Shown here: in pieces, positions 31,661 to 51,977 of the stretch | Position numbering within the stretch: the first letter of the stretch is position 1 | Layout of the letters: each line of letters opens with the position of its first letter | Source of the DNA: Rhodohalobacter sulfatireducens | Lineage (GTDB): Bacteria > Bacteroidota > Rhodothermia > Balneolales > Balneolaceae | Reading direction: 5' to 3' | Length of the DNA stretch: 64,000 nt | Assembly: GCF_022012475.1 (NCBI RefSeq) | Contig: NZ_JAKLWS010000010.1 | Coordinates: 1 to 64,000 of the forward strand | Program-made: the position numbers and the translations under genes | Notes under the pieces: model-generated | Databases searched by the model: none | The model's input: the letters and a program-made list of their open reading frames with translations, nothing else | Told to the model about the DNA's origin: nothing

Positions 31661-32336
31661 TGAAACATATTAATCCCTGATTGGGCAGGTTAGTTACCTA
31701 TGAAGTGCGCCCCCGGACGAATGACATTTTATAACACCAGCAGTTTCAACTACTTAACTCAAACGCTGGAATAATCTGCCCAATTTTGCTTATCAACCAT
31801 TAATGAGTCCGCAATGGATTATCGATCACATAAATATGTAGAGTAACAATTAGAATAAGATGATTACCTCTGCACCAAAATGAGCCTGACACAACGCCGG
31901 AGTGTTTGGGAGCTGGATGCATTGACAAAACCCCACCATTACCCGGGTGATTACATTTGCGGCCATCCATTTTTTGAAAATCTGCAGGACGCATCCGATC
32001 ATAAGATCTATTCAGAAGAACTCTTCCCCGGCTTTGATGCACTTTTTATTCAGAGAAGATATTCACCGTAATGTTTCAATTATAGCTTATTATTCATTTA
32101 ACCTGAATAAAATCGAATATTTGACTTTTTTTGGCGATTTTATTCTATTCAATCAAATAAATGAGCCGTTATCCTGAAACGGATAAATAGCTAAAAACAC
32201 AGCAACTAACCAACGAATCTCAATTAGCATTAAAACAGCAGCAGCCTACCTGAACGGCTCAAGAAATCCCGGAAATACAAGGGGCATCTACTGAAGGCAT
32301 CTCCGTTGTTTTACGAAATTGGAACGATCCTGGACC
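31661..32336. other. 676-bp gap with a perfect 11-bp inverted repeat
   Basis: GAATAAAATCG at 32105-32115 pairs exactly with CGATTTTATTC at 32135-32145 around a 19-base loop containing a T-run. It is not directly behind a gene, so it is unlikely to be a terminator. Open frames of 60-80 codons occur on both strands around 31800-32070 but have no family resemblance. Confidence 0.4.
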
Positions 32337-33185
32337 ATGAATTTTACATCTGAACACCTAAAAAACGCAGATACAAGAAATGATCTCATCAAAATTGCAA
32401 AAAAGAACGGTATACCTGTTCAAAAAACACTGGATAAATTACGGTATGAAGCTGAACTAAAGCAGTTGCAAATTGAGATGGTGAATCTTCAAAAATGGAT
32501 AGCCAAAAAGAAGAAACGACTTGCAATTATTTTTGAAGGACGAGACGCTGCCGGCAAGGGTGGATCCATCAAACGGCTTAAACAGCATCTCAATCCACGG
32601 TCATCCAGGGTGGTCGCTTTGTCAAAACCAACAGAAGTTGAAAGAGGGCAATGGTATTTTCGAAGGTATATCAAAGTACTGCCCAACCCGGGTGAGATTG
32701 TATTTTTTGACCGAAGCTGGTACAACCGTGCTGTTGTGGAACCTGTGATGGGTTTTTGTAATGAGGAGGAGTATGAACAGTTTATTGTTCAGGTACCTGA
32801 ATTTGAACACCTGCTTTACGAAGACAATCTCATTATGATCAAGTTTTGGTTTTCAATTTCAAAGGATGAGCAGCAGGAGCGATTCGAATCCCGACTGCAA
32901 AACCCGTTGAAACAGTGGAAATACAGTCCCGTTGATATGAAAGGCCAGGAGCTTTGGGATCGCTATACCTATTACAAAGAACAGATGTTCAGTAAGACCC
33001 ACACTAATTTCAGTCCCTGGATTATCGTAAAAGCCAACAGTAAAAAGAAAGCCAGGCTGGAAAGTATGAGATATATACTTTCGAAATTTAATTACGAAGG
33101 GAAAGGTGAATCGGACACAACTCTACTTCCGGATCCTAATATTGTGATGAGATACCATCGAAGTGCAACTCAAATTGATATCTAA
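32337..33185 (+). CDS. ppk2: Polyphosphate kinase 2 family protein (first of a tandem pair)
   Basis: PPK2 enzymes move phosphate between inorganic polyphosphate and nucleotides. Visible motifs are Walker A FEGRDAAGKGGSIKRL (about residues 66-81), Walker B with lid residues EIVFFDRSWYNRAVVEP (about 120-136), and KFWFSISKDEQQERFESR near the lid module. ATG 32337 is chosen over a TTG at 32319. The protein is 282 residues. The neighbouring gene, 14 bp downstream, encodes a second PPK2, so the two are surely co-transcribed. Substrate class (AMP, ADP or GDP) cannot be set from sequence alone. Confidence 0.9.
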   Translation: MNFTSEHLKNADTRNDLIKIAKKNGIPVQKTLDKLRYEAELKQLQIEMVNLQKWIAKKKKRLAIIFEGRDAAGKGGSIKRLKQHLNPRSSRVVALSKPTEVERGQWYFRRYIKVLPNPGEIVFFDRSWYNRAVVEPVMGFCNEEEYEQFIVQVPEFEHLLYEDNLIMIKFWFSISKDEQQERFESRLQNPLKQWKYSPVDMKGQELWDRYTYYKEQMFSKTHTNFSPWIIVKANSKKKARLESMRYILSKFNYEGKGESDTTLLPDPNIVMRYHRSATQIDI

Positions 33186-33199
33186 ATAATTTTTACAGG

Positions 33200-33964
33200 A
33201 TGAAACTAACAGATAAAGAGATCGAGCTCCTGAACTCCAAAGATGGCTTTTATGCCCTTCTTAAAAGGAAAAAGCTTAATATCAGAAAGTCTTTGAAGGA
33301 GGCTAAATATGCCCATGAAATGAACAAAAAGCAGGAAGAGATGATCAAACTGCAAAGCTGGGTTATAGAAAATGATAAAAAAGTGGTCATTGTTTTTGAA
33401 GGCAGGGATGCAGCCGGAAAAGGTGGAGCTATTCGTCGCCTGACGGAGCGCATCAACCCAAGACACTTTCGCAGTGTTGCTTTGAATATTCCTTCTGACG
33501 ATGAGCAAAAACAATGGTTTTTCCAAAGATACATTAACCAGTTACCCAACCCCGGGGAGATTGTCCTGTTCGACCGGAGCTGGTATAACAGGGCGGTCGT
33601 TGAACCGGTCAATGGTTTTTGCACCGAAGAGGAATACCGGGTTTTTATGTCCCAGGTTAATCAATTTGAGAAGATGTTGGTTCAATCCAATACGTACCTG
33701 GTGAAGTTTTACTTTTCCATCACAAAAAAAGAACAGGCCCGGCGGTTTAAAGACATCAAAAAAAGTCCGTTAAAACGCTGGAAAATGACCGCCGTAGATG
33801 AAAGAGCACAAGATCTTTGGGACTCTTACACAGAGTACAAGGAAAAAATGTTTGAAGTCACCAATTCAGAACATGCACCATGGAGAATAATCGATGCCAA
33901 CAATAAAAGGTATGCACGACTTGAGGCTATCAAACATATTCTAAAAACAATTCCCTACGAGTAA
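33200..33964 (+). CDS. ppk2: Polyphosphate kinase 2 family protein (second of a tandem pair)
   Basis: The 254 residues repeat the PPK2 layout of the upstream gene: Walker A FEGRDAAGKGGAIRRL, Walker B EIVLFDRSWYNRAVVEP, and KFYFSITKKEQARRF. Compared with the first copy, it is about 30 residues shorter and lacks the C-terminal tail. The two proteins are clearly paralogous but diverged (for example SSRVVALSKPTEVE against HFRSVALNIPSDDE), so they probably have different nucleotide preferences or form a mixed oligomer. The 378 bp that follow contain no gene that I recognise, only a 17-bp block (34202-34218) that recurs inverted at 57602-57618. Confidence 0.9.
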   Translation: MKLTDKEIELLNSKDGFYALLKRKKLNIRKSLKEAKYAHEMNKKQEEMIKLQSWVIENDKKVVIVFEGRDAAGKGGAIRRLTERINPRHFRSVALNIPSDDEQKQWFFQRYINQLPNPGEIVLFDRSWYNRAVVEPVNGFCTEEEYRVFMSQVNQFEKMLVQSNTYLVKFYFSITKKEQARRFKDIKKSPLKRWKMTAVDERAQDLWDSYTEYKEKMFEVTNSEHAPWRIIDANNKRYARLEAIKHILKTIPYE

Positions 33965-35177: not shown

Positions 35178-35612
35178 ATGAATGATAAGGATGCACTTTT
35201 AAAAAAAATAAACACAAAACGAGGGGAGGTATCTGATTATCTAAAAAAGAATGAGCCAAGACATTCCCGGTACATTACCATCTCAATCGTGGCCGGTGCA
35301 TTAGCTGCAGCACTGACAGCCGGCCCCGGTGTGGGAGGCCCCGGTTTTATCGAATCTGCAAAGGGTGTGATATCATTTGGTATTCCTGTATGGCAAGTGC
35401 TCTGTTTAGTGGCTACCCTCTTATCCATGTCTGCTGTCATTGCAAACGGATTGTTAAAAGCCCGTGATCTAACCTCGAAAATTACCCAGGTTCGCGGCTG
35501 CGATGCCAAACTTGAAGGACTGGAAACCATGCTTGAGTTTGAACAGATAGATCTAAAACAAGCAACTTCGCTTTATACACAGTATCTGACCGAGATTCCG
35601 CATATAAGGTGA
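35178..35612 (+). CDS. Small two-TM protein with flanking helices, hypothetical
   Basis: The 144 residues begin with a charged helix (MNDKDALLKKINTKRGEVSD), followed by two membrane segments (ITISIVAGALAAALTAGPGV and WQVLCLVATLLSMSAVIANG) and a long C-terminal helix (KITQVRGCDAKLEGLETMLE). The pattern resembles the SLATT group of small membrane proteins, some of which act as pore effectors in defence systems, but that resemblance is loose and no nucleotide-processing partner gene is adjacent. The start ATG follows GGGAGAACC, a weak ribosome-binding site. Confidence 0.6.
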   Translation: MNDKDALLKKINTKRGEVSDYLKKNEPRHSRYITISIVAGALAAALTAGPGVGGPGFIESAKGVISFGIPVWQVLCLVATLLSMSAVIANGLLKARDLTSKITQVRGCDAKLEGLETMLEFEQIDLKQATSLYTQYLTEIPHIR

Positions 35613-38671: not shown

Positions 38672-38914
38672 ATGCCTACAAGTATCACCATTCGAGATAT
38701 ACCTGATGATGTTTATGCCAAAATAAAAAAGCAGGCTGAGCTACATCATCGAAGTATTAACAGTGAAGTGATTGTTTATTTGAAAAAATTAGCTCAAAGC
38801 AATCGACGAGATCCAGACCAAATAATTACTCGTGCCAAAAAACTTAAACAGAAAGCGAAAGGCTCTCTTTCTATGGATGAAATTCAACAAGCAATTGACA
38901 AAGGCCGTCCATGA
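38672..38914 (+). CDS. Antitoxin of a VapBC/FitAB-type pair (ribbon-helix-helix)
   Basis: The 80-residue protein opens with a ribbon-helix-helix domain (MPTSITIRDIPDDVYAKIKK, then HHRSINSEVIVYLKKLA) that would bind the operon promoter. The C-terminal part, MDEIQQAIDKGRP, would clamp the toxin. This is the FitA-like class of VapB antitoxins. Its stop overlaps the toxin start by 4 bp (ATGA), the standard arrangement for translational coupling. The upstream gap contains an A/T-rich promoter-like region with the sequence TAGTTTCATAATGAAAC, an inverted repeat that could be its operator. Confidence 0.88.
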   Translation: MPTSITIRDIPDDVYAKIKKQAELHHRSINSEVIVYLKKLAQSNRRDPDQIITRAKKLKQKAKGSLSMDEIQQAIDKGRP

Positions 38915-39312
38915 TTGTTGTTGATACCAATGTAATTGCAACCATGTGGGTGCCAAATGACATGGATGAATGGGTTTACAAGGTTCTCAAGAAAGATGAT
39001 GATTGGGTTGCTCCTCTTCTCTGGCGATCCGAATTTAGAAATATACTATCGATATATTTACGGAAGGAAATTTTAGAATTCTCCGTTGTTTTGCGAGTAA
39101 CAGAAGAAGCTGAGCATTTGATGGAGGCCAACGAATTCGATGTTAACTCGACACAGGTTATGAGTCTTGTTGCAAATTCATCATGTTCAGCATATGATTG
39201 TGAATTTGTAGCATTGGCTGATGATTTAAATATTCAGCTGGTCACATTTGATAAAAAAATTGCTCGTGAATTTCCTGAGATCGCTATTAGCCCAAAAGAA
39301 TTTGCTACATAA
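38911..39312 (+). CDS. vapC: PIN-domain RNase toxin (VapC/FitB-like)
   Basis: This ribonuclease of 133 residues has the PIN-domain acidic residues in place: Asp in IVVDTNVIATMW (residue 5), Glu in WRSEFRNILS (about 43), Asp in SAYDCEFVALA (about 93) and the final Asp in VTFDKKI (about 113). VapC toxins cut tRNA or rRNA when freed from VapB. The intact acidic set and full length indicate an active gene, unlike several neighbouring toxin-antitoxin remnants. Confidence 0.88.
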   Translation: MIVVDTNVIATMWVPNDMDEWVYKVLKKDDDWVAPLLWRSEFRNILSIYLRKEILEFSVVLRVTEEAEHLMEANEFDVNSTQVMSLVANSSCSAYDCEFVALADDLNIQLVTFDKKIAREFPEIAISPKEFAT

Positions 39313-40574: not shown

Positions 40575-40698
40575 ATTCCCATCAAAAAGGCCGAGTCGGT
40601 TAAACACTGGACCGTTACACCCACTCTTCCACTCAATAAATAATTGTCAGAATTGTTCGTTTTTCAATAGATTGGAGAAAGAGACAAACCCCAAAACT

Positions 40699-40932
40699 AT
40701 GATTACAGATTATAAAGAAATTCAGCATTCGGCTCTCGAATTAGACGAAAAACAACGCGCTGAATTAGCCAAAAAGCTTATTGATAGCCTTGATCAGCAA
40801 ATTGATGATGATATTGAACAAGCATGGATTGATGAAGTAAAACAAAGAAAAGCTGAGATCAAATCGGGAAAGGTAGCTGCAATTTCAGGTCAAGAAGTGC
40901 ATAAAGCCGCCCGAGAGTTTCTTAAAAAATGA
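40699..40932 (+). CDS. Addiction-module antitoxin of a ParE-type pair
   Basis: The 77 residues start MITDYKEIQHSALELDEKQR and include AELAKKLIDSLD, the conserved core shared with the orphan antitoxin at 40308. The acidic middle (DDDIEQAWIDEV) is typical of the family. ATG 40699 is preferred to a TTG at 40672. The C-terminal residues (HKAAREFLKK) overlap the toxin start by 4 bp. Together with the next gene it forms a complete and apparently live type II system. Confidence 0.82.
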   Translation: MITDYKEIQHSALELDEKQRAELAKKLIDSLDQQIDDDIEQAWIDEVKQRKAEIKSGKVAAISGQEVHKAAREFLKK

Positions 40933-41222
40933 CTTTTCAATATCATCCTGAGGCAGCAAAAGAATTAACGAGTTCTATTCAATACTACGAAGAAAAATCT
41001 AATGGGCTTGGGGCTGAATTTCTTGATGAGATAGAAGAAGCCATCGCTCAGGCATTAGCACATCCTCAATCTGGATCTTTACTTAGCAAACAAGATCGAA
41101 GGATTTTACTTGACCGTTTTCCTTATGAAATTATTTATTTCGTTTCTGAAAATATAATCACTATTACTGCTGTCAAGCATATGAAACGAAAACCGGGTTA
41201 TTGGGAAAAGCGCCTTAAATAA
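40929..41222 (+). CDS. RelE/ParE family toxin
   Basis: The 97-residue toxin has the ParE layout: MTFQYHPEAAKELTSSIQYY, GLGAEFLDEIEEAIAQALAH, a strand pair ending RILLDRFPYEIIYFVSENI, and the closing VKHMKRKPGYWEKRLK. ParE proteins poison gyrase, while related RelE proteins cut mRNA; the RKPGYW end favours ParE. It begins in the antitoxin stop (ATGA). Unlike the two nearby paralogous loci, it is intact. Confidence 0.87.
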   Translation: MTFQYHPEAAKELTSSIQYYEEKSNGLGAEFLDEIEEAIAQALAHPQSGSLLSKQDRRILLDRFPYEIIYFVSENIITITAVKHMKRKPGYWEKRLK

Positions 41223-42495: not shown

Positions 42496-43104
42496 TTACT
42501 GCAGTCTCAAAAACAGATCCCTCTCCTTCTCACGTCGGTTTACAAGAGCTTCATTCACCTGGCCGTTCACTTTGTTCCACAACAGAATAGCTTCGGCAGC
42601 TTCCTCCCATGCCTGCTCGTTCACCTTCCTTAAAACAGTAGATTCGGCAAAACCGCCCGGCCCGATGTTATAAGTGAGACAGACCATGGCACTGAATTCG
42701 TTTTCAGAAATTTCCACTTCCACCATGCGGCTAACGCTCTCCTCAAAGATCCTGAGATCTTCCCTCAGGTATTGTTCAGCTTCGGCCTCGGTAATCTTCA
42801 TGCCTTCCGTTACTTCCTGGCTTCGTCCATACCCGATATACCAATTCCCTCGCTGATCTGAATAAGCCTCCAGGCGCAAACCTGTAAACTCCTTAATGAT
42901 ATCAATACAGGCATCATTTGTCCGGAATTCTTCTGCAGATTCTCGAGTTGGCTGCTCAGTTGCTTTAGGAATATTTCTTTCAACCGGCCTGTACGTTTCA
43001 ATTCTCACAGGTTCTGAAGTTTCCGATTGCGCTGTTTTCTCGGAACTGCTGCAACCCGTTATCCATAAACAGATAACTATGATTAGACTACCTATTTTTT
43101 TCAT
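42496..43104 (-). CDS. Lipoprotein with GH24 lysozyme fold, catalytic Glu and Thr missing (copy 1)
   Basis: The 202-residue product has a lipobox (CLWITGC, Cys18), a Ser/Glu/Thr-rich linker and a T4/lambda-type GH24 lysozyme domain (about 70-200). The family's E-8x-D-5x-T triad can be read against the pattern EGLRLxAYxDxxGxWTIGYG. Here the segment is FTGLRLEAYSDQRGNWYIGYG: Glu is Thr, Asp is kept and Thr is Tyr. The rest of the fold is well kept (NEFSAMVCLTYNIGPGGF, STVLRKVN, VNRREKERDLF). It is therefore probably not a standard muramidase; glycan binding or an altered mechanism are options. A paralogue is encoded next to it. Confidence 0.82.
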   Translation of the reverse strand: MKKIGSLIIVICLWITGCSSSEKTAQSETSEPVRIETYRPVERNIPKATEQPTRESAEEFRTNDACIDIIKEFTGLRLEAYSDQRGNWYIGYGRSQEVTEGMKITEAEAEQYLREDLRIFEESVSRMVEVEISENEFSAMVCLTYNIGPGGFAESTVLRKVNEQAWEEAAEAILLWNKVNGQVNEALVNRREKERDLFLRLQ

Positions 43105-43234
43105 ATTCTACTCCTCGTTTAATTATATCCCCTTTATATCAAGTGAAGCCAATGCCTTGTAGATGCAAATGTAGTTAATTGCAACCTAAACTCCTTAAAG
43201 TCAATAATAATAAACTGCAAAAATTTAAGATTGT

Positions 43235-43876
43235 TTAATCCACGCTTAGAAACAACTCTCTCTCCATTTCCCGGCGGCTTACGAGGTGTGAATTCACCTG
43301 TCCATTAACTTTATTCCACATTAAAATGGCATCAGCAGCTTCATCCCACTTCTCTTCGTTTACTTTTCTCAATACGGTGGACTGGCCAAAGTTTCCTGAG
43401 CCGATGTTATAAGATAAACAGACCATCGCGCTAAATTCATTATTGGTTACACCTACCCCTACCATCTGGCTTATGTTTTCCTCGAAAACCCTGAGATCTT
43501 CACGTAGTAACTGTTCAGCTTCGGCTTCTGTAATTGTCATTCCCTCAGTCACACCACCCTGGTGACCATATCCGATATACCAATGTCCACTGAGGCCTTG
43601 ATAGGCTTCAAGCCGTAATCCTTCGGATTCTTTGATAATATCAATACATGTATCATTGGTTCGATACAAATTTGCCGGCTGGCGAAGCAATACTGCTTCG
43701 GTAGAAACAACTTCCGGTTCAACTGGTTCAACCGTTTCAACGATCTCTTCAGCTACCGGTGTTTCAGGAGGCGCTGATGTTTCTGGTTCTACTGTTTTCT
43801 CAGCGGTGCTGCAAGCTGTAACCCAACAACATGTGATAATGATAAGACAGGCTTTACGATACATGGTATTCTCCAT
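43235..43876 (-). CDS. Lipoprotein with GH24 lysozyme fold, catalytic Asp and Thr missing (copy 2)
   Basis: The 213-residue product has a lipobox (CWVTAC), a long Glu/Val/Pro-rich linker and a GH24 domain closely related to that of the neighbouring gene. In SEGLRLEAYQGLSGHWYIGY the catalytic Glu is kept, but the Asp is Gly and the Thr is Tyr. This is the reverse of copy 1, which keeps Asp and loses Glu. The remainder (NNEFSAMVCLSYNIGSGNFG, STVLRKVNEEKWDEAADAIL, SRREMERELFL) is conserved. The two genes are arranged head to tail, 130 bp apart. A role in binding or remodelling peptidoglycan at the outer membrane is inferred. Confidence 0.82.
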   Translation of the reverse strand: MENTMYRKACLIIITCCWVTACSTAEKTVEPETSAPPETPVAEEIVETVEPVEPEVVSTEAVLLRQPANLYRTNDTCIDIIKESEGLRLEAYQGLSGHWYIGYGHQGGVTEGMTITEAEAEQLLREDLRVFEENISQMVGVGVTNNEFSAMVCLSYNIGSGNFGQSTVLRKVNEEKWDEAADAILMWNKVNGQVNSHLVSRREMERELFLSVD

Positions 43877-44177: not shown

Positions 44178-45110
44178 TTAGAGTTTCAGACTCCATCCTA
44201 TTCCAAAAACCTGGTCGGCAGATGATTCACTCAAGCCAAGAGTAAACGTACTATTTAATGAAATTCGATTAGATGCAAAAAGTCCAACCCCAAAACTGAG
44301 ATTCATGGGGGGATCGTAATCCTTAATAATCTCTGTATATCCGCTAAATGTACTGTTGATAAACCACTTCCCTTGTCCGAATGTCCGTGTGAGCCCGGCA
44401 CTGTAAGTAAGAGGATCTTTTAATTCCAGGTCGGGCATATTTCCAAGCCACCATCTCATGAAATTAGTATACATAAAGAATTTTCCAAAGCGCTGGGAAA
44501 GGGATATCCCGACTCCATAATCCCACTCGCCGGTACCAAACCCGTTGTTTGGATCAGCAAATGGAATTTTGAATCCTGAGTTTAACTGAATGTTGCTGGA
44601 ACCTGAGCCCGAACTGTATAATTTGAGACTTGCATAAATATTTGGATCTCCAAAGCTGGATTGAGTATATGAAGTGGTATCTGGAAGTGTGATTGGTACT
44701 TCTTCAGATTCGGCAACTAGAATCGGAGTACTATAGCTTCCACTACCGTATTGATTTTTTGAACCATTCCCATTTTTGCCTCCCTTACCGGGTCTGCGAC
44801 CCGTCGAATCTGCGAGACCTCCATGCTGAGGACCACCGGTTGGTAATTGTCCGGCTGCACTGTATGAGATCCATGGTGAATTTTGAACAATAAACGGCAC
44901 GGAAAAGGAGACGGAGAATTTATCTCCTACATAGCCCAATCCATTGGATGCAGAAAAACTGCTCGTTGATTCATCAAAAAAATAGGAGCCGGTTGCGTAC
45001 TGTACATTCCCATGGTATGATACCTGTTGAGCCTGTACACAACCGACTACCAAAGTAACCCCAAGTAACGCCACCGTGAATATTCTGCGATTTCGTCTCT
45101 GGATTTCCAA
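44178..45110 (-). CDS. Outer-membrane beta-barrel protein with a Gly/Asn/Lys-rich loop
   Basis: The 310-residue product has a signal peptide (LLGVTLVVGCVQAQQ) and then alternating-hydrophobicity strands typical of a transmembrane barrel (FSVSFSVPFIVQNSPWISYS; IYASLKLYSSGSGSSNIQLN; MYTNFMRWWLGNMPDLELKD; WFINSTFSGYTEIIKDYD). It ends in an aromatic-rich strand (VFGIGWSLKL), as barrels inserted by BamA do. A disordered segment (GRRPGKGGKNGNGSKNQYGS) probably forms a large surface or periplasmic loop. It resembles the meta-pathway (phenol degradation) barrel family only in outline. The next gene, on the same strand, encodes a poly-Gln secreted protein. Confidence 0.7.
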   Translation of the reverse strand: MEIQRRNRRIFTVALLGVTLVVGCVQAQQVSYHGNVQYATGSYFFDESTSSFSASNGLGYVGDKFSVSFSVPFIVQNSPWISYSAAGQLPTGGPQHGGLADSTGRRPGKGGKNGNGSKNQYGSGSYSTPILVAESEEVPITLPDTTSYTQSSFGDPNIYASLKLYSSGSGSSNIQLNSGFKIPFADPNNGFGTGEWDYGVGISLSQRFGKFFMYTNFMRWWLGNMPDLELKDPLTYSAGLTRTFGQGKWFINSTFSGYTEIIKDYDPPMNLSFGVGLFASNRISLNSTFTLGLSESSADQVFGIGWSLKL

Positions 45111-45155: not shown

Positions 45156-45671
45156 TTAATTTGATTGATGAATTCTATCTTGATCTCGCAACCTATCTCT
45201 TATTTGATCCATCGTTTGCAAGGCATCTTCAGCCTGACCAGTCATGTCATTCAGGTGCAGTCGCAGGCGGTCCATGTCTCGTTGCATGTCTCGATCCTGA
45301 ATCATATCACGATCTTGCAGCATTAGGTTACACTGCTGGGCTGCATTTTTCATGTTGCCAATGGTCAGTCCGAGTTGTTCACCAAATCGATGCATATTTT
45401 GAAATTGGTTTCGCAACTGTTCATTCTGTGTTTGCTGCATTCGACGATTCATATCCTGGTTCATTGCATAGGTACGTTCCTGAAGTCGATTCATCCGCTG
45501 CATCATTTGCTGCATCTGCTGCATATGTTGCTGCATTTGTTGTTGCATCTGTTGCTCCTGTTGTTGCTGTTGCTGCTGTTGTTGTTGCTGACCTCGTTGT
45601 TGAGCAAAAACATTAACAGTCAAAAAAAGCAGCATCAATAGTACTGAAGTCATTCTTGTTATTTTTTTCAT
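45156..45671 (-). CDS. Secreted poly-glutamine helical protein, hypothetical
   Basis: The 171 residues start with a clear signal peptide (TSVLLMLLFLTVNVFAQQ). The mature protein opens with an almost pure Gln tract (11 consecutive Gln, then QMQQQMQQHMQQMQQ) built from CAG and CAA codons. After it come long Met/Gln/Arg/Asp-rich helices with MQDRDM-type repeats (IQDRDMQRDMDRLRLHLND). Coiled-coil assembly is likely. The tract is encoded by trinucleotide repeats around 45540-45600 and may be length-variable. A Leu-rich frame on the opposite strand is an artefact of this composition. The gene is 45 bp upstream of the barrel gene, so the two are probably co-transcribed. Confidence 0.72.
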   Translation of the reverse strand: MKKITRMTSVLLMLLFLTVNVFAQQRGQQQQQQQQQQQEQQMQQQMQQHMQQMQQMMQRMNRLQERTYAMNQDMNRRMQQTQNEQLRNQFQNMHRFGEQLGLTIGNMKNAAQQCNLMLQDRDMIQDRDMQRDMDRLRLHLNDMTGQAEDALQTMDQIRDRLRDQDRIHQSN

Positions 45672-46168
45672 GACATCTCCTGATCTCTGATTATTGGTAA
45701 GATGATCTACAAAAGTAGTTTAGACATAAACAAGCTTTGGAAATAACAATTAACTCAACACAGCATGTAATTAAATTCCGCAAATTAGCATAGTACAAAT
45801 GACTACAAGGCTTCGAAATATACGGTTCTCCCGATCTATCCTGCCTTTCAGATTAACTGCATCATCAATTTATGCGGCATCTAGAGTATTTTATTTAAGC
45901 AAATTCCTGCTTTTTAAATCTATAGGGTAACGTCAGGGCAAACTACTCTTTGTATTTGCTCTATATCTTTTCTGTACAAAAATAAAAAAGTAATTACAGT
46001 ACAGGAGGGTAAGCAATATTCTTACAAATGTGATTGAAATACCTTTCATATCAGAATAGTAAATCATAGTAGTCTTCTGGGGTTTAAGGAGGATATTATA
46101 TAACAAGAAAGAGTGAGTAATTATGCTCAAAAACAAGAACAAAAATAAACAAGATGAGAGGTAAACAG
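45672..46168. other. 497-bp divergent promoter region
   Basis: It separates the poly-Gln gene from the Gly-rich lipoprotein gene. A TAAGGAGGATAT box at 46086-46097 resembles a ribosome-binding site, but no start codon sits at the right distance. A 13-codon Lys/Asn-rich frame (46123-46164) ends just before the lipoprotein start and may be chance or a leader peptide. Confidence 0.35.
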
Positions 46169-47269
46169 ATGAGAACAACAAAAAGATATCTGCAAAACTT
46201 ACTGCCTCTTTTATTAATTCTAATCTGGGCGTGCGAAACCCCATTAGAAATATCAGATAAGGCAGAAGTAAGTTCGTTGGACTCCGATTTGATCGCGTTG
46301 GCAAAACCAACAGATGGAGATAAGGTAGGTAATAATCTGTCTTTTCCAGTTATATGGTCAGATGGAGTAGTGAAACCTTTAAGAGGTACATATGGTACTC
46401 CACAATTTGACGGATTATTTTTTACAGCCGATGGATATGATTGGTATGTACAAAATGATGATCTGAACACATGGCAGGCTGCTTCTGTAAATGCCGTTAC
46501 AGAAGTAGGTTACGAATCTCCGGTGGTTGTTTCTTCCATTGACTGGGGAGACAACCTGGAATCAAAAGCATGGCCGTTTGGTGCACAGGTTCGGGTTGAA
46601 ACAGTACTTTACAAAACCTTGAGCACACCAATGGATGCCTATACAATGCAAATCGAAGATCCAAGTGTTTCGGGCCTTGCAGAAGTATGGGGAACCAATG
46701 GAGTAATCTATCCAAGTAGTGAGGCTACTGTGTATTCCGGTACAGCCAAACTGGTGATTCAGCAACTGCTTAAAGAACGCGATGATCCTACATTGACAAC
46801 CACCTGGGACCCGGTACTTTCTCAATGGACAGGTGACATCGGATCTCCGCTATTTGAAAGTGGTGTATGGAACGCAGTGGATGGACCATCCGGATATTCA
46901 GCCGAGATCAACGTTCAAGGAAAAGTAATCTACGGATACAACTGGGTGACCCGTAGAACTGCTGCTGGCCCCGGGGACTATCGAATTACGTTTGTCCTGG
47001 ATCCCAACAGCATCGTGACCTACAATACCGACTTCGACAGTAATACAATTATCGTACTCAAAGAAGAAGAAGAGGAAGAAGTTGTCATTCAAGAGGAACC
47101 AGACCTTGCTGGTGGAGTAGCTATAATTGATGCTGTGAATAACCTTACCTATATGGATGTTCGCCTTACACTAAAAAGCGGTAGCGGAAAACCCGGTGGC
47201 GGTGATGGAAATAAAGGTAACGGCGGCGGTAAACCTGATGATGGCGGTAAAGGTCAGAAAGGCAACTAA
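46169..47269 (+). CDS. Secreted lipoprotein with Gly/Lys/Asn-rich C-terminal tail, hypothetical
   Basis: The 366-residue product has a lipoprotein signal (NLLPLLLILIWAC) and mostly beta-rich sequence with many Trp and Tyr (FFTADGYDWYVQNDDLNTWQ; WNAVDGPSGYSAEINVQGKV; VIYGYNWVTRR). An acidic run of Glu (EEEEEEVVIQEE) follows, and a low-complexity tail of GGGDGNKGNGGGK type. ATG 46169 is preferred to 46154 because GAGAGGT then acts as its ribosome-binding site. The tail resembles the loop of the barrel protein at 44178, suggesting that the two may act in one surface system. A strong terminator follows 30 bp after the stop. Confidence 0.7.
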   Translation: MRTTKRYLQNLLPLLLILIWACETPLEISDKAEVSSLDSDLIALAKPTDGDKVGNNLSFPVIWSDGVVKPLRGTYGTPQFDGLFFTADGYDWYVQNDDLNTWQAASVNAVTEVGYESPVVVSSIDWGDNLESKAWPFGAQVRVETVLYKTLSTPMDAYTMQIEDPSVSGLAEVWGTNGVIYPSSEATVYSGTAKLVIQQLLKERDDPTLTTTWDPVLSQWTGDIGSPLFESGVWNAVDGPSGYSAEINVQGKVIYGYNWVTRRTAAGPGDYRITFVLDPNSIVTYNTDFDSNTIIVLKEEEEEEVVIQEEPDLAGGVAIIDAVNNLTYMDVRLTLKSGSGKPGGGDGNKGNGGGKPDDGGKGQKGN

Positions 47270-50796: not shown

Positions 50797-51768
50797 TCAA
50801 TTCAGATCAGCCATCGCATTCGTAAGAACCGTATGTGTTCTCTCATAACTCTCCTTCAAAATTGTCCGGGCATCCATTGAATCCCAATATTCTCGGTTAA
50901 AGAGTTCAACTGAAAATCCTCCGCGGAATCCGGCATTATATAGTTTGGGTATAACATCTTCATAAGGACAAATTCCTTCACCGGGAAAAACTCTGTCGGC
51001 ATCCGTCAGTTCATCCCTCGGCGGATTGGCCGGGTAATCATTCATATGCATCACGGATAGCTTGCCCGCATTAACCAGATTGATGGTATCCCAATCATTT
51101 CCACCGCGGTAGACGTGGTAAAAATCAAACAAAACAGTGGCATCGGGGTGACCACTTGCAATTGCGATATGAACACAATCAGATACTCTATGAAGGGCTC
51201 CGGTTCCCCAAACTTCCAGGATGGGAATCACACCGGTTTGATCACCGAGTTCCAAGATAGCTCGATAGCGATCGGCATATTCATCAAGTTTTGAGAGATC
51301 GATCGAATCTATTCCCTGAACAGGTGCGGCAATATAGTTTCCACCCATCGCCGCAATCATCTCCATGTCGCTGCGAAGCAGATCAAGTGCTTCTGCACGG
51401 GTATTAGCGTCATCACTGATCCACTCCGAAAAACCAATCATATTCTCGAGCAGAAGATTGTTTGATGAAAGCAATTCACCCAGCTCTTCAGCCGTACCAC
51501 CTGCATCGATAAAACTACGAATATCGCGTACCCACATCTCTATACCATCAAAACCGGCATCGCCCACCATCCGTATCTGTTCATCTGCCGGTAACTCATA
51601 TGCCTGAAGCGTGGAGGTGTTCATACTGATTCGAAAAGGTAAATCGTGAGTTTGTGCTCTATTATTTACAGGCTTACTCTTTGAAAAACCGAAACCGGTT
51701 GCAGCTCCCATAACAGCAAGACCGCTGTTTCGAATCATTTGCCTTCGCGACATTTTATTATCAGACAT
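50797..51768 (-). CDS. Sugar phosphate isomerase/epimerase-like TIM-barrel protein with Tat signal
   Basis: The 323-residue product is an AP-endonuclease-2-type TIM barrel as found in xylose-isomerase-like enzymes: GFDGIEMWVRDIRSFIDAGG, MIAAMGGNYIAAPVQGIDSI, PDATVLFDFYHVYRGGNDW, MHMNDYPANPPRDEL and FRGGFSVELFNREYWDSMD, with the expected Glu, Asp, His and Glu metal ligands. It begins with a twin-arginine signal (MSRRQMIRNSGLAVMGAATG), so it is exported. ATG 51768 is chosen because GTGGAG lies upstream as the ribosome-binding site. It probably epimerises or dehydrates a sugar in the periplasm. Confidence 0.85.
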   Translation of the reverse strand: MSDNKMSRRQMIRNSGLAVMGAATGFGFSKSKPVNNRAQTHDLPFRISMNTSTLQAYELPADEQIRMVGDAGFDGIEMWVRDIRSFIDAGGTAEELGELLSSNNLLLENMIGFSEWISDDANTRAEALDLLRSDMEMIAAMGGNYIAAPVQGIDSIDLSKLDEYADRYRAILELGDQTGVIPILEVWGTGALHRVSDCVHIAIASGHPDATVLFDFYHVYRGGNDWDTINLVNAGKLSVMHMNDYPANPPRDELTDADRVFPGEGICPYEDVIPKLYNAGFRGGFSVELFNREYWDSMDARTILKESYERTHTVLTNAMADLN

Positions 51769-51977
51769 AGAAAAACTCCACAAATTTTAAATATTCAGTG
51801 ACGAGCACATAAATAAAAAAATCTAGTTAAAAAGTCAGAGAACTATCATCCTCTTTTCAAATTTTTTCAGATTCTTTTTATATCTGTCTGATAAAATCTC
51901 TAAACTTTATGCGAAACAGTCGCCTTAAATTGAATCATAAAAACGTTTCATAAATCGAGCTACCTGAAAAAGTTATA

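Follow-up and report, generated by a model that had tools for sequence, protein, structure and literature searches.

Two adjacent lipoprotein-like GH24 proteins of Rhodohalobacter sulfatireducens have altered active sites and probably hold on to the cell wall instead of digesting it

In a stretch of 64,000 nucleotides from Rhodohalobacter sulfatireducens (positions 1 to 64,000 of contig NZ_JAKLWS010000010.1, hereafter the window), two neighboring genes encode proteins with a phage-lysozyme (GH24) domain whose catalytic residues are replaced in different combinations. We propose that a phage-type GH24 muramidase was domesticated and blunted, giving rise to two lipid-anchored envelope proteins, of which copy 1 acts as a binder and copy 2 as a binder or a weak muramidase relying on Glu only. 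The probability of this joint reading is, in our estimate, about 0.55. Judging from the residues at the active site, both proteins probably bind to the cell wall without digesting it.

The two genes are arranged as follows:

42496-43104, minus strand: copy 1, an ORF for a lipoprotein-like protein of 202 aa with a GH24 (phage-lysozyme) domain (PF00959, E 5e-40, residues 71-194); lipobox ITGC with Cys18, read by eye
43235-43876, minus strand: copy 2, an ORF for a lipoprotein-like protein of 213 aa with a GH24 domain (PF00959, E 1e-39, residues 82-205); lipobox VTAC with Cys22, read by eye
codon from 43864, minus strand: Met5, an alternative start of copy 2

Both genes lie in tandem on the minus strand with a gap of 130 bases, and their products are paralogues with 60% identity (124/208). 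Each copy fills the Pfam Phage_lysozyme profile PF00959 completely (1-125 of 125 positions), with scores of 137.1 bits for copy 1 and 135.7 bits for copy 2 against a gathering score of 22.3, and these two proteins are the only matches to the profile in the whole genome at E<=10. The layout is the same in both copies: a hydrophobic N-terminus with a lipobox-like motif is followed by a linker of about 42-49 residues that is rich in Pro, Glu and Thr, and then by the C-terminal GH24 domain. The lipobox, again read by eye, takes the form [IV]T[GA]C in all four proteins of the clade that the two copies form with their closest relatives (see below), and we infer from it that both copies are anchored in the outer membrane.

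The codons of the residues at the catalytic positions are the following:

42883-42885, minus strand: Thr74 of copy 1, in place of the catalytic Glu (the orthologue from genome G027 has Val here)
42856-42858, minus strand: Asp83 of copy 1, at the Asp/Cys position, kept
42838-42840, minus strand: Tyr89 of copy 1, at the catalytic Thr position
43622-43624, minus strand: Glu85 of copy 2, the catalytic Glu, kept
43595-43597, minus strand: Gly94 of copy 2, at the Asp/Cys position
43577-43579, minus strand: Tyr100 of copy 2, at the catalytic Thr position

The triad columns thus read T74/D83/Y89 in copy 1 and E85/G94/Y100 in copy 2, in an alignment that is gapless from the Glu to the Thr column; the columns were also read against lysozymes of the PDB. 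These are the residue losses that the first-pass annotation, made from the sequence of the window, had stated, and they hold against a control of 79 rows of cellular GH24 proteins. The GH24 motif, as given in the available text of PMC8228626, is Glu-x8-(Asp/Cys)-x5-Thr. Among the other GH24 ORFs 170 of 201 hold E-x8-[DC]-x5-T, and it was not found in register in copy 1 or copy 2, so that neither copy has a full Glu-Asp-Thr set in register. Copy 1 matches this pattern once, at residues 59-74, but the match is located upstream of the active site and has no equivalent in the orthologue; a shift of register was rejected on these grounds.

The cellular control was compiled without two Tyr-bearing rows (L086 and L088, described below) and without L090, which gave no alignment. 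In this control the Glu column holds Glu in all 75 filled rows of the 79, and the Thr column holds Thr in 76 of 77 rows with one Ser (76/79 once L086 and L088 are added). The Glu and Thr of the Glu-Asp-Thr triad from which the first-pass annotation had started are therefore near-invariant, but its Asp is not strictly kept: Asp or Cys fills this column in 73 of 77 rows, with Cys in 49 and Asp in 24. The frequency of Cys agrees with the published motif, and the loss of Asp in copy 2 reads as a milder departure than the loss of Glu in copy 1 or of Thr in both copies. For Thr, the fair control consists of the cellular rows only, as Thr and His are given in the viral rows by their selection with TIGYGHT. 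At least 120 stretches of IMG/VR contain TIGYGHT, all with a GH24 ORF, and four contain YIGYGHT, none of them with a GH24 ORF. One GH24 ORF from IMG/VR (L188) has Tyr at the Glu position and Asn at the Asp position and keeps Thr; it is possibly a further inactive form.

Relatives of the pair are rare. The PF00959 profile finds matches in 3 of 28 genomes of the genus, 3 of 92 of the family, 10 of 244 of the class and 67 of 394 genomes sampled in the phylum, while a profile built from the four clade proteins matches 3 of 128 genomes of the order at E<=1e-10. Since 3 of the 28 genus genomes carry it, the lysozyme gene is accessory and not core. All eight class-level matches outside the genus keep both Glu and Thr. 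A wide scan of genome contigs with a single-protein query found nothing, and the same scan with the four-row alignment returned a record of the congeneric genome G010 together with GH24 genes from two cyanobacteria, two Magnetospirillum and one Paenibacillus; those outside the clade have the ordinary triad, but with Lys at the Asp position in Paenibacillus. No clade relatives were found in a scan of IMG/VR.

Two congeneric genomes complete the clade. G010 has one gene of the copy-2 type (Glu/Gly/Tyr), on a contig that matches SKKO01000245.1, labelled Balneolaceae, and G027 has one gene of the copy-1 type (Val/Asp/Tyr). All four proteins found carry Tyr in place of Thr, and Glu is replaced in the copy-1 pair only (by Thr and Val). 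In a careful tree the four proteins form one clade with full support, with values of 97/57 for the copy-1 pair and 85/48 for the copy-2 pair; a larger quick tree supports the copy-1 pair at 99 and does not resolve the copy-2 pair. Based on this topology and on the residue states, Thr was most likely replaced before the split between copy 1 and copy 2, and Glu was lost on the copy-1 side only.

The distribution of the two types also bears on an idea of the first-pass annotation, namely that the copies may assemble into a heteromer whose active site is composite or new; in a composite site, Glu would come from copy 2 and Asp from copy 1. Such a heteromer would suit two adjacent, co-directional genes, only 130 bases apart, that are complementary in Glu and Asp. 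However, G010 and G027 each hold one orthologue without a partner, and the occurrence of each type on its own argues against an obligate heteromer; G027 is 97% complete in about 20 contigs with its lysozyme locus whole, whereas G010 is 98% complete in 390 contigs. Since a contig ends some 1.5 kb away from the G010 gene, a second copy may have been lost there. In addition, both residues would lie inside one cleft of one fold, and sharing them would require a domain swap. The composite site is weakened by these findings, and we regard it as highly improbable.

The same pairs of orthologues were used to estimate selection. Within the GH24 domain, dN/dS amounts to 0.043 in the copy-1 pair and 0.080 in the copy-2 pair, compared with 0.24 and 0.25 in the N-terminal part (signal and linker together); these values, obtained by the method of Nei and Gojobori, are rough, with a domain dS of 1.76 and 1.10, above 1 in both pairs. 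They support purifying selection on the GH24 domain despite its damaged active site, in line with the first-pass annotation, which had taken the rest of the fold to be strongly conserved and under selection. The conservation is less complete than this would imply, as substitutions also occur at further conserved positions: all four clade proteins have lost the Gly of the GLxRRR motif, and three of them the His after GYG. In a set of 199 GH24 rows, 25 columns reach a conservation of 85% or more, of which copy 1 retains 20 and copy 2 retains 21; with the threshold at 80% there are 30 such columns, and the numbers retained are 24 and 26. This set of rows excludes the clade, L086 and L088 and includes 120 IMG/VR rows picked by TIGYGHT, which inflates the columns of that motif. 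The conserved columns that were lost include Glu (copy 1) and Thr (both copies), each 99% conserved in the 199 rows.

The predicted structures agree with an intact fold. The AlphaFold models have a mean pLDDT of 89.0 for copy 1 and 88.3 for copy 2, with ten-residue blocks at 95 or above across residues 61-200 and 71-210, respectively. For both models the top structural match is the muramidase domain of SpmX, 6h9d (Z 23.5 and 23.8), which superposes with an rmsd of 1.1 on copy 1 and 1.0 on copy 2 over 143 residues. It is tied with the peptidoglycan hydrolase 9kbq (Z 23.5/23.6) and the endolysin 7m5i (Z 22.9/23.2), and the predicted GH24 fold also matches several phage lysozymes at Z of 20 or more. 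Aligned to copy 2, 6h9d keeps Glu and has Leu at Gly94 and Met at Tyr100, which contradicts the statement in the available text of PMC8228626 that all published structures hold the full GH24 motif. In the comparison with PDB sequences, 6h9d takes third place with copy 2 and sixth place with copy 1, and the entries above it are phage and prophage lysozymes. The first NCBIfam match of both copies is the gene-transfer-agent endolysin BgtA, below the cut-off, and SpmX (NF051871) comes second with 86.6 and 92.8 bits against an equivalog cut-off of 700. The sequence matches favour ordinary lysins over SpmX, and this counts against our joint reading.

Two genes located on either side of the pair, some way off, served as synteny markers:

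35178-35612, plus strand: short gene with no Pfam match at E<=0.001; in G027 its homologue (94% identical) comes immediately after the copy-1 orthologue, on the downstream side
50797-51783, minus strand: xylose-isomerase-like TIM-barrel gene; its G027 homologue lies directly upstream of the copy-1 orthologue

In G027 the copy-1 gene stands between the homologues of these two markers, and the gene order shared with G027 runs on to 57.5 kb of the window. Because the gene order around copy 1 is conserved in this way, the lysozyme genes are more likely resident than a fresh insertion. The G010 gene is found at another place, downstream of a dxs-like ORF (named by eye). In a further genus genome, G025, the TIM-barrel gene is present and the surrounding 4-kb locus holds no lysozyme remnant. 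Counting the genome of the window itself, an SMP-30-like flanking gene occurs in 6 of the 28 genus genomes and the flanking gene at 44178-45110 in 4, and no lysozyme was found at the loci of these genes in the other genus genomes. The short marker gene is likewise present in 4 of 28, own genome counted, and has a very weak PADLOC match to an RT-associated SLATT protein (E 0.024).

The scanned neighbours of the pair match metabolic, transport and toxin-antitoxin families or nothing. By Pfam, no phage, holin, spanin or lysis gene was found among the 14 neighbouring ORFs scanned, nor do the scanned neighbours form a tra operon. A scan for promoter-like sites (4 found, 4.9 expected) and terminator-like sites (2 found, 1.5 expected) was uninformative. 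Several other genes of this region deserve a record. An overlapping toxin-antitoxin pair at 40672-41222 (plus strand) combines a putative addiction-module antitoxin (PF09720) with a ParE toxin (PF05016), and 38911-39312 (plus strand) is a PIN-domain (VapC-like) gene, for which partner antitoxins of at least 110 aa were considered. At 32319-33964 (plus strand) two adjacent ORFs resemble, by eye, tandem polyphosphate kinase 2 paralogues. The products of 44178-45110 (minus strand) and 46154-47269 (plus strand) have hydrophobic N-termini and low-complexity stretches rich in Gly, Lys and Asn, and that of 45156-45671 (minus strand) has a hydrophobic N-terminus and a long tract rich in Gln and Met.

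Two further explanations can be weighed against this neighbourhood. The copies could be decaying prophage lysins whose ORFs are still open by chance; the closest PHROGs families of both are phage endolysins (phrog_7), and the gene is patchy, with 3 of 28 genus genomes. Nevertheless, a dN/dS of 0.04-0.08, the conserved synteny of copy 1 and the absence of phage genes among the 14 scanned neighbours make such decay hardly plausible. Alternatively, the blunt lysozymes could serve as a decoy or shield, occupying the wall from the inside and slowing the endolysins of phages or rivals. As matches to endolysin profiles they should occupy the same sites, their patchy presence suits an accessory trait, and the toxin-antitoxin pair and the PIN-domain gene lie nearby; we still consider a decoy very unlikely, given that PADLOC yielded chance-level matches only (Csx19 at E 0.022 for copy 1, none for copy 2).

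Outside the clade, our survey showed Tyr in place of Thr in just two further rows, both from genome G507 (L086 and L088), which represent a lysozyme family of Bacteroidales conjugative elements. A query with this family gave 18 distinct loci, for which we took 10 of 11 plasmid matches, left out a weak Burkholderia match and did not count L216 and L222, which repeat L088 and L086. Tyr stands at the Thr position in 14 loci (L086, L088, L217 and L223-L233), with Glu in all 13 that cover its site; in the remaining four loci, which are more distant, this position is filled by Thr or Ser. Relative to GH24, the loop from Glu to Tyr lacks four to six residues, which leaves Asp/Cys without a clear counterpart; an Asp occurs inside the loop in 3 of the 14. 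Two records with wide annotation place the gene in a tra operon, near TraO and DUF3872 genes. In the short-flank records a DUF3872 gene adjoins in three and an integrase in one, and four carry no annotation. The clade and the conjugative-element lysozymes are separate in the tree, but a single clade of Tyr variants is not rejected (AU p 0.279); an independent origin of the Tyr in the two is likely rather than established.

These lysozymes bring into view a possible, if doubtful, alternative in which copy 2 still works as a muramidase or transglycosylase through a changed active site, using Glu85 as the acid and Tyr100 as a water positioner or nucleophile, and copy 1 is its acid-less binding partner or regulator. 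Such an enzyme would account for Tyr in all four clade proteins and in 14 of 18 conjugative-element loci, with Glu retained, and two of these loci belong to tra operons, which can be expected to need a functional wall enzyme. The frequency of Cys for Asp in the cellular rows (49/77) points the same way. According to the available text of PMC7060211, cleavage persists in T4 lysozyme T26E, although a covalent adduct is formed, and so the chemistry at this position can change. On the other hand, Tyr is much bulkier than Thr, copy 2 has also lost the conserved Gly of GLxRRR, and none of the literature titles among the matches listed pointed to an activity measurement on a conjugative-element lysozyme. 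It is unlikely, in our judgement, that Glu and Tyr without the usual Asp/Cys form an unrecognised working GH24 variant common to copy 2 and the conjugative-element lysozymes, with Tyr as nucleophile or water guide or with a Glu-only transglycosylase, and with copy 1 as a dead paralogue that became a wall-binding regulator. Copy 2 may cut normally, because its essential Glu is kept and similar Glu/Tyr lysozymes sit in transfer operons.

Our preferred reading, the domesticated and blunted muramidase, would work as follows. The precursor would be exported and, to judge from the lipobox, lipidated at Cys18 (copy 1) or Cys22 (copy 2), and the linker would carry the intact lysozyme fold to the peptidoglycan. 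In the ancestor, the replacement of the water-positioning Thr by Tyr would have blunted cutting. With the additional loss of its catalytic Glu, copy 1 would have become a binder of glycan strands without catalysis, while copy 2, with Glu kept and Gly in place of Asp/Cys, would be a binder or a strongly weakened Glu-only muramidase, maybe one that cuts slowly. Both would likely tether either the outer membrane or some partner protein to the wall, and this would parallel the way in which SpmX re-uses its muramidase domain.

The suggestion of non-catalytic binders in the first-pass annotation therefore fares differently for the two proteins. Copy 1 is probably a pure, non-catalytic glycan binder, because in T4 lysozyme the mutation E11A abolishes cleavage and leaves peptidoglycan binding (available text of PMC7060211). 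For copy 2, as binder or weak Glu-only enzyme, we are less sure that catalysis is lost, since the Asp position often holds Cys, SpmX retains Glu alone, and the conjugative-element family combines Glu with Tyr.

In literature on inactive, domesticated or lipoprotein GH24 proteins and on Balneolaceae lysozyme, no title among the matches listed describes such a pair. If the preferred reading is true, the pair represents a further phage lysin tamed into an envelope protein, besides SpmX in Caulobacterales, and provides a graded series at one locus, with Thr lost in all proteins and Glu in one of two paralogues. SpmX itself is said to have originated from a phage lysin and to have retained attenuated activity. 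The pair also raises the question of whether GH24 enzymes need Thr and Asp, or whether Glu with Tyr is enough, as the conjugative-element lysozymes would suggest.

Compared with phage GH24 endolysins (P22-type, PF00959, phrog_7), the two copies share the whole domain, the fold and most core motifs, and their best sequence matches are found there. They differ from them by the broken Glu-x8-(Asp/Cys)-x5-Thr motif in both copies, by the lipoprotein-like anchor and by the absence of lysis genes among the 14 scanned neighbours. The T4 lysozyme mutants E11A and T26E, as described in the available text of PMC7060211, are parallels to the loss of Glu in copy 1 and to the changed Thr, although they are single laboratory mutants and neither is a Thr-to-Tyr change. 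The Bacteroidales conjugative-element lysozymes resemble copy 2 in having Tyr at the Thr position, Glu kept and no Asp/Cys at the usual spacing; unlike copy 2, they are very divergent and have a shorter Glu-Tyr loop, and unlike them, copies 1 and 2 do not lie in a tra operon, to judge from the scanned neighbours.

SpmX of Caulobacterales is another case of a GH24 fold re-used by the cell, and the active-site change described here resembles one already known in Caulobacter SpmX. Like SpmX, copy 2 keeps Glu but has other residues at the Asp and Thr positions (6h9d has Leu and Met there), whereas copy 1 is without even the Glu. The lysozyme-like domain of SpmX, according to the available text of PMC5347347, keeps Glu, has no detected activity and was repurposed for oligomer assembly and protein recruitment. 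The architectures differ: SpmX consists of an N-terminal muramidase domain, a proline-rich region and two transmembrane segments (same source), and in copies 1 and 2 the GH24 domain is C-terminal, behind a lipoprotein-like N-terminus and linker. As in SpmX, viewed as a detoxified lysin, degenerate catalytic residues go together with purifying selection and a resident gene, and the residues suggest that activity was lost. Because they fall far below the equivalog cut-off and have this other architecture, the two copies are not SpmX, but by analogy they would work like it, as tamed phage lysins.
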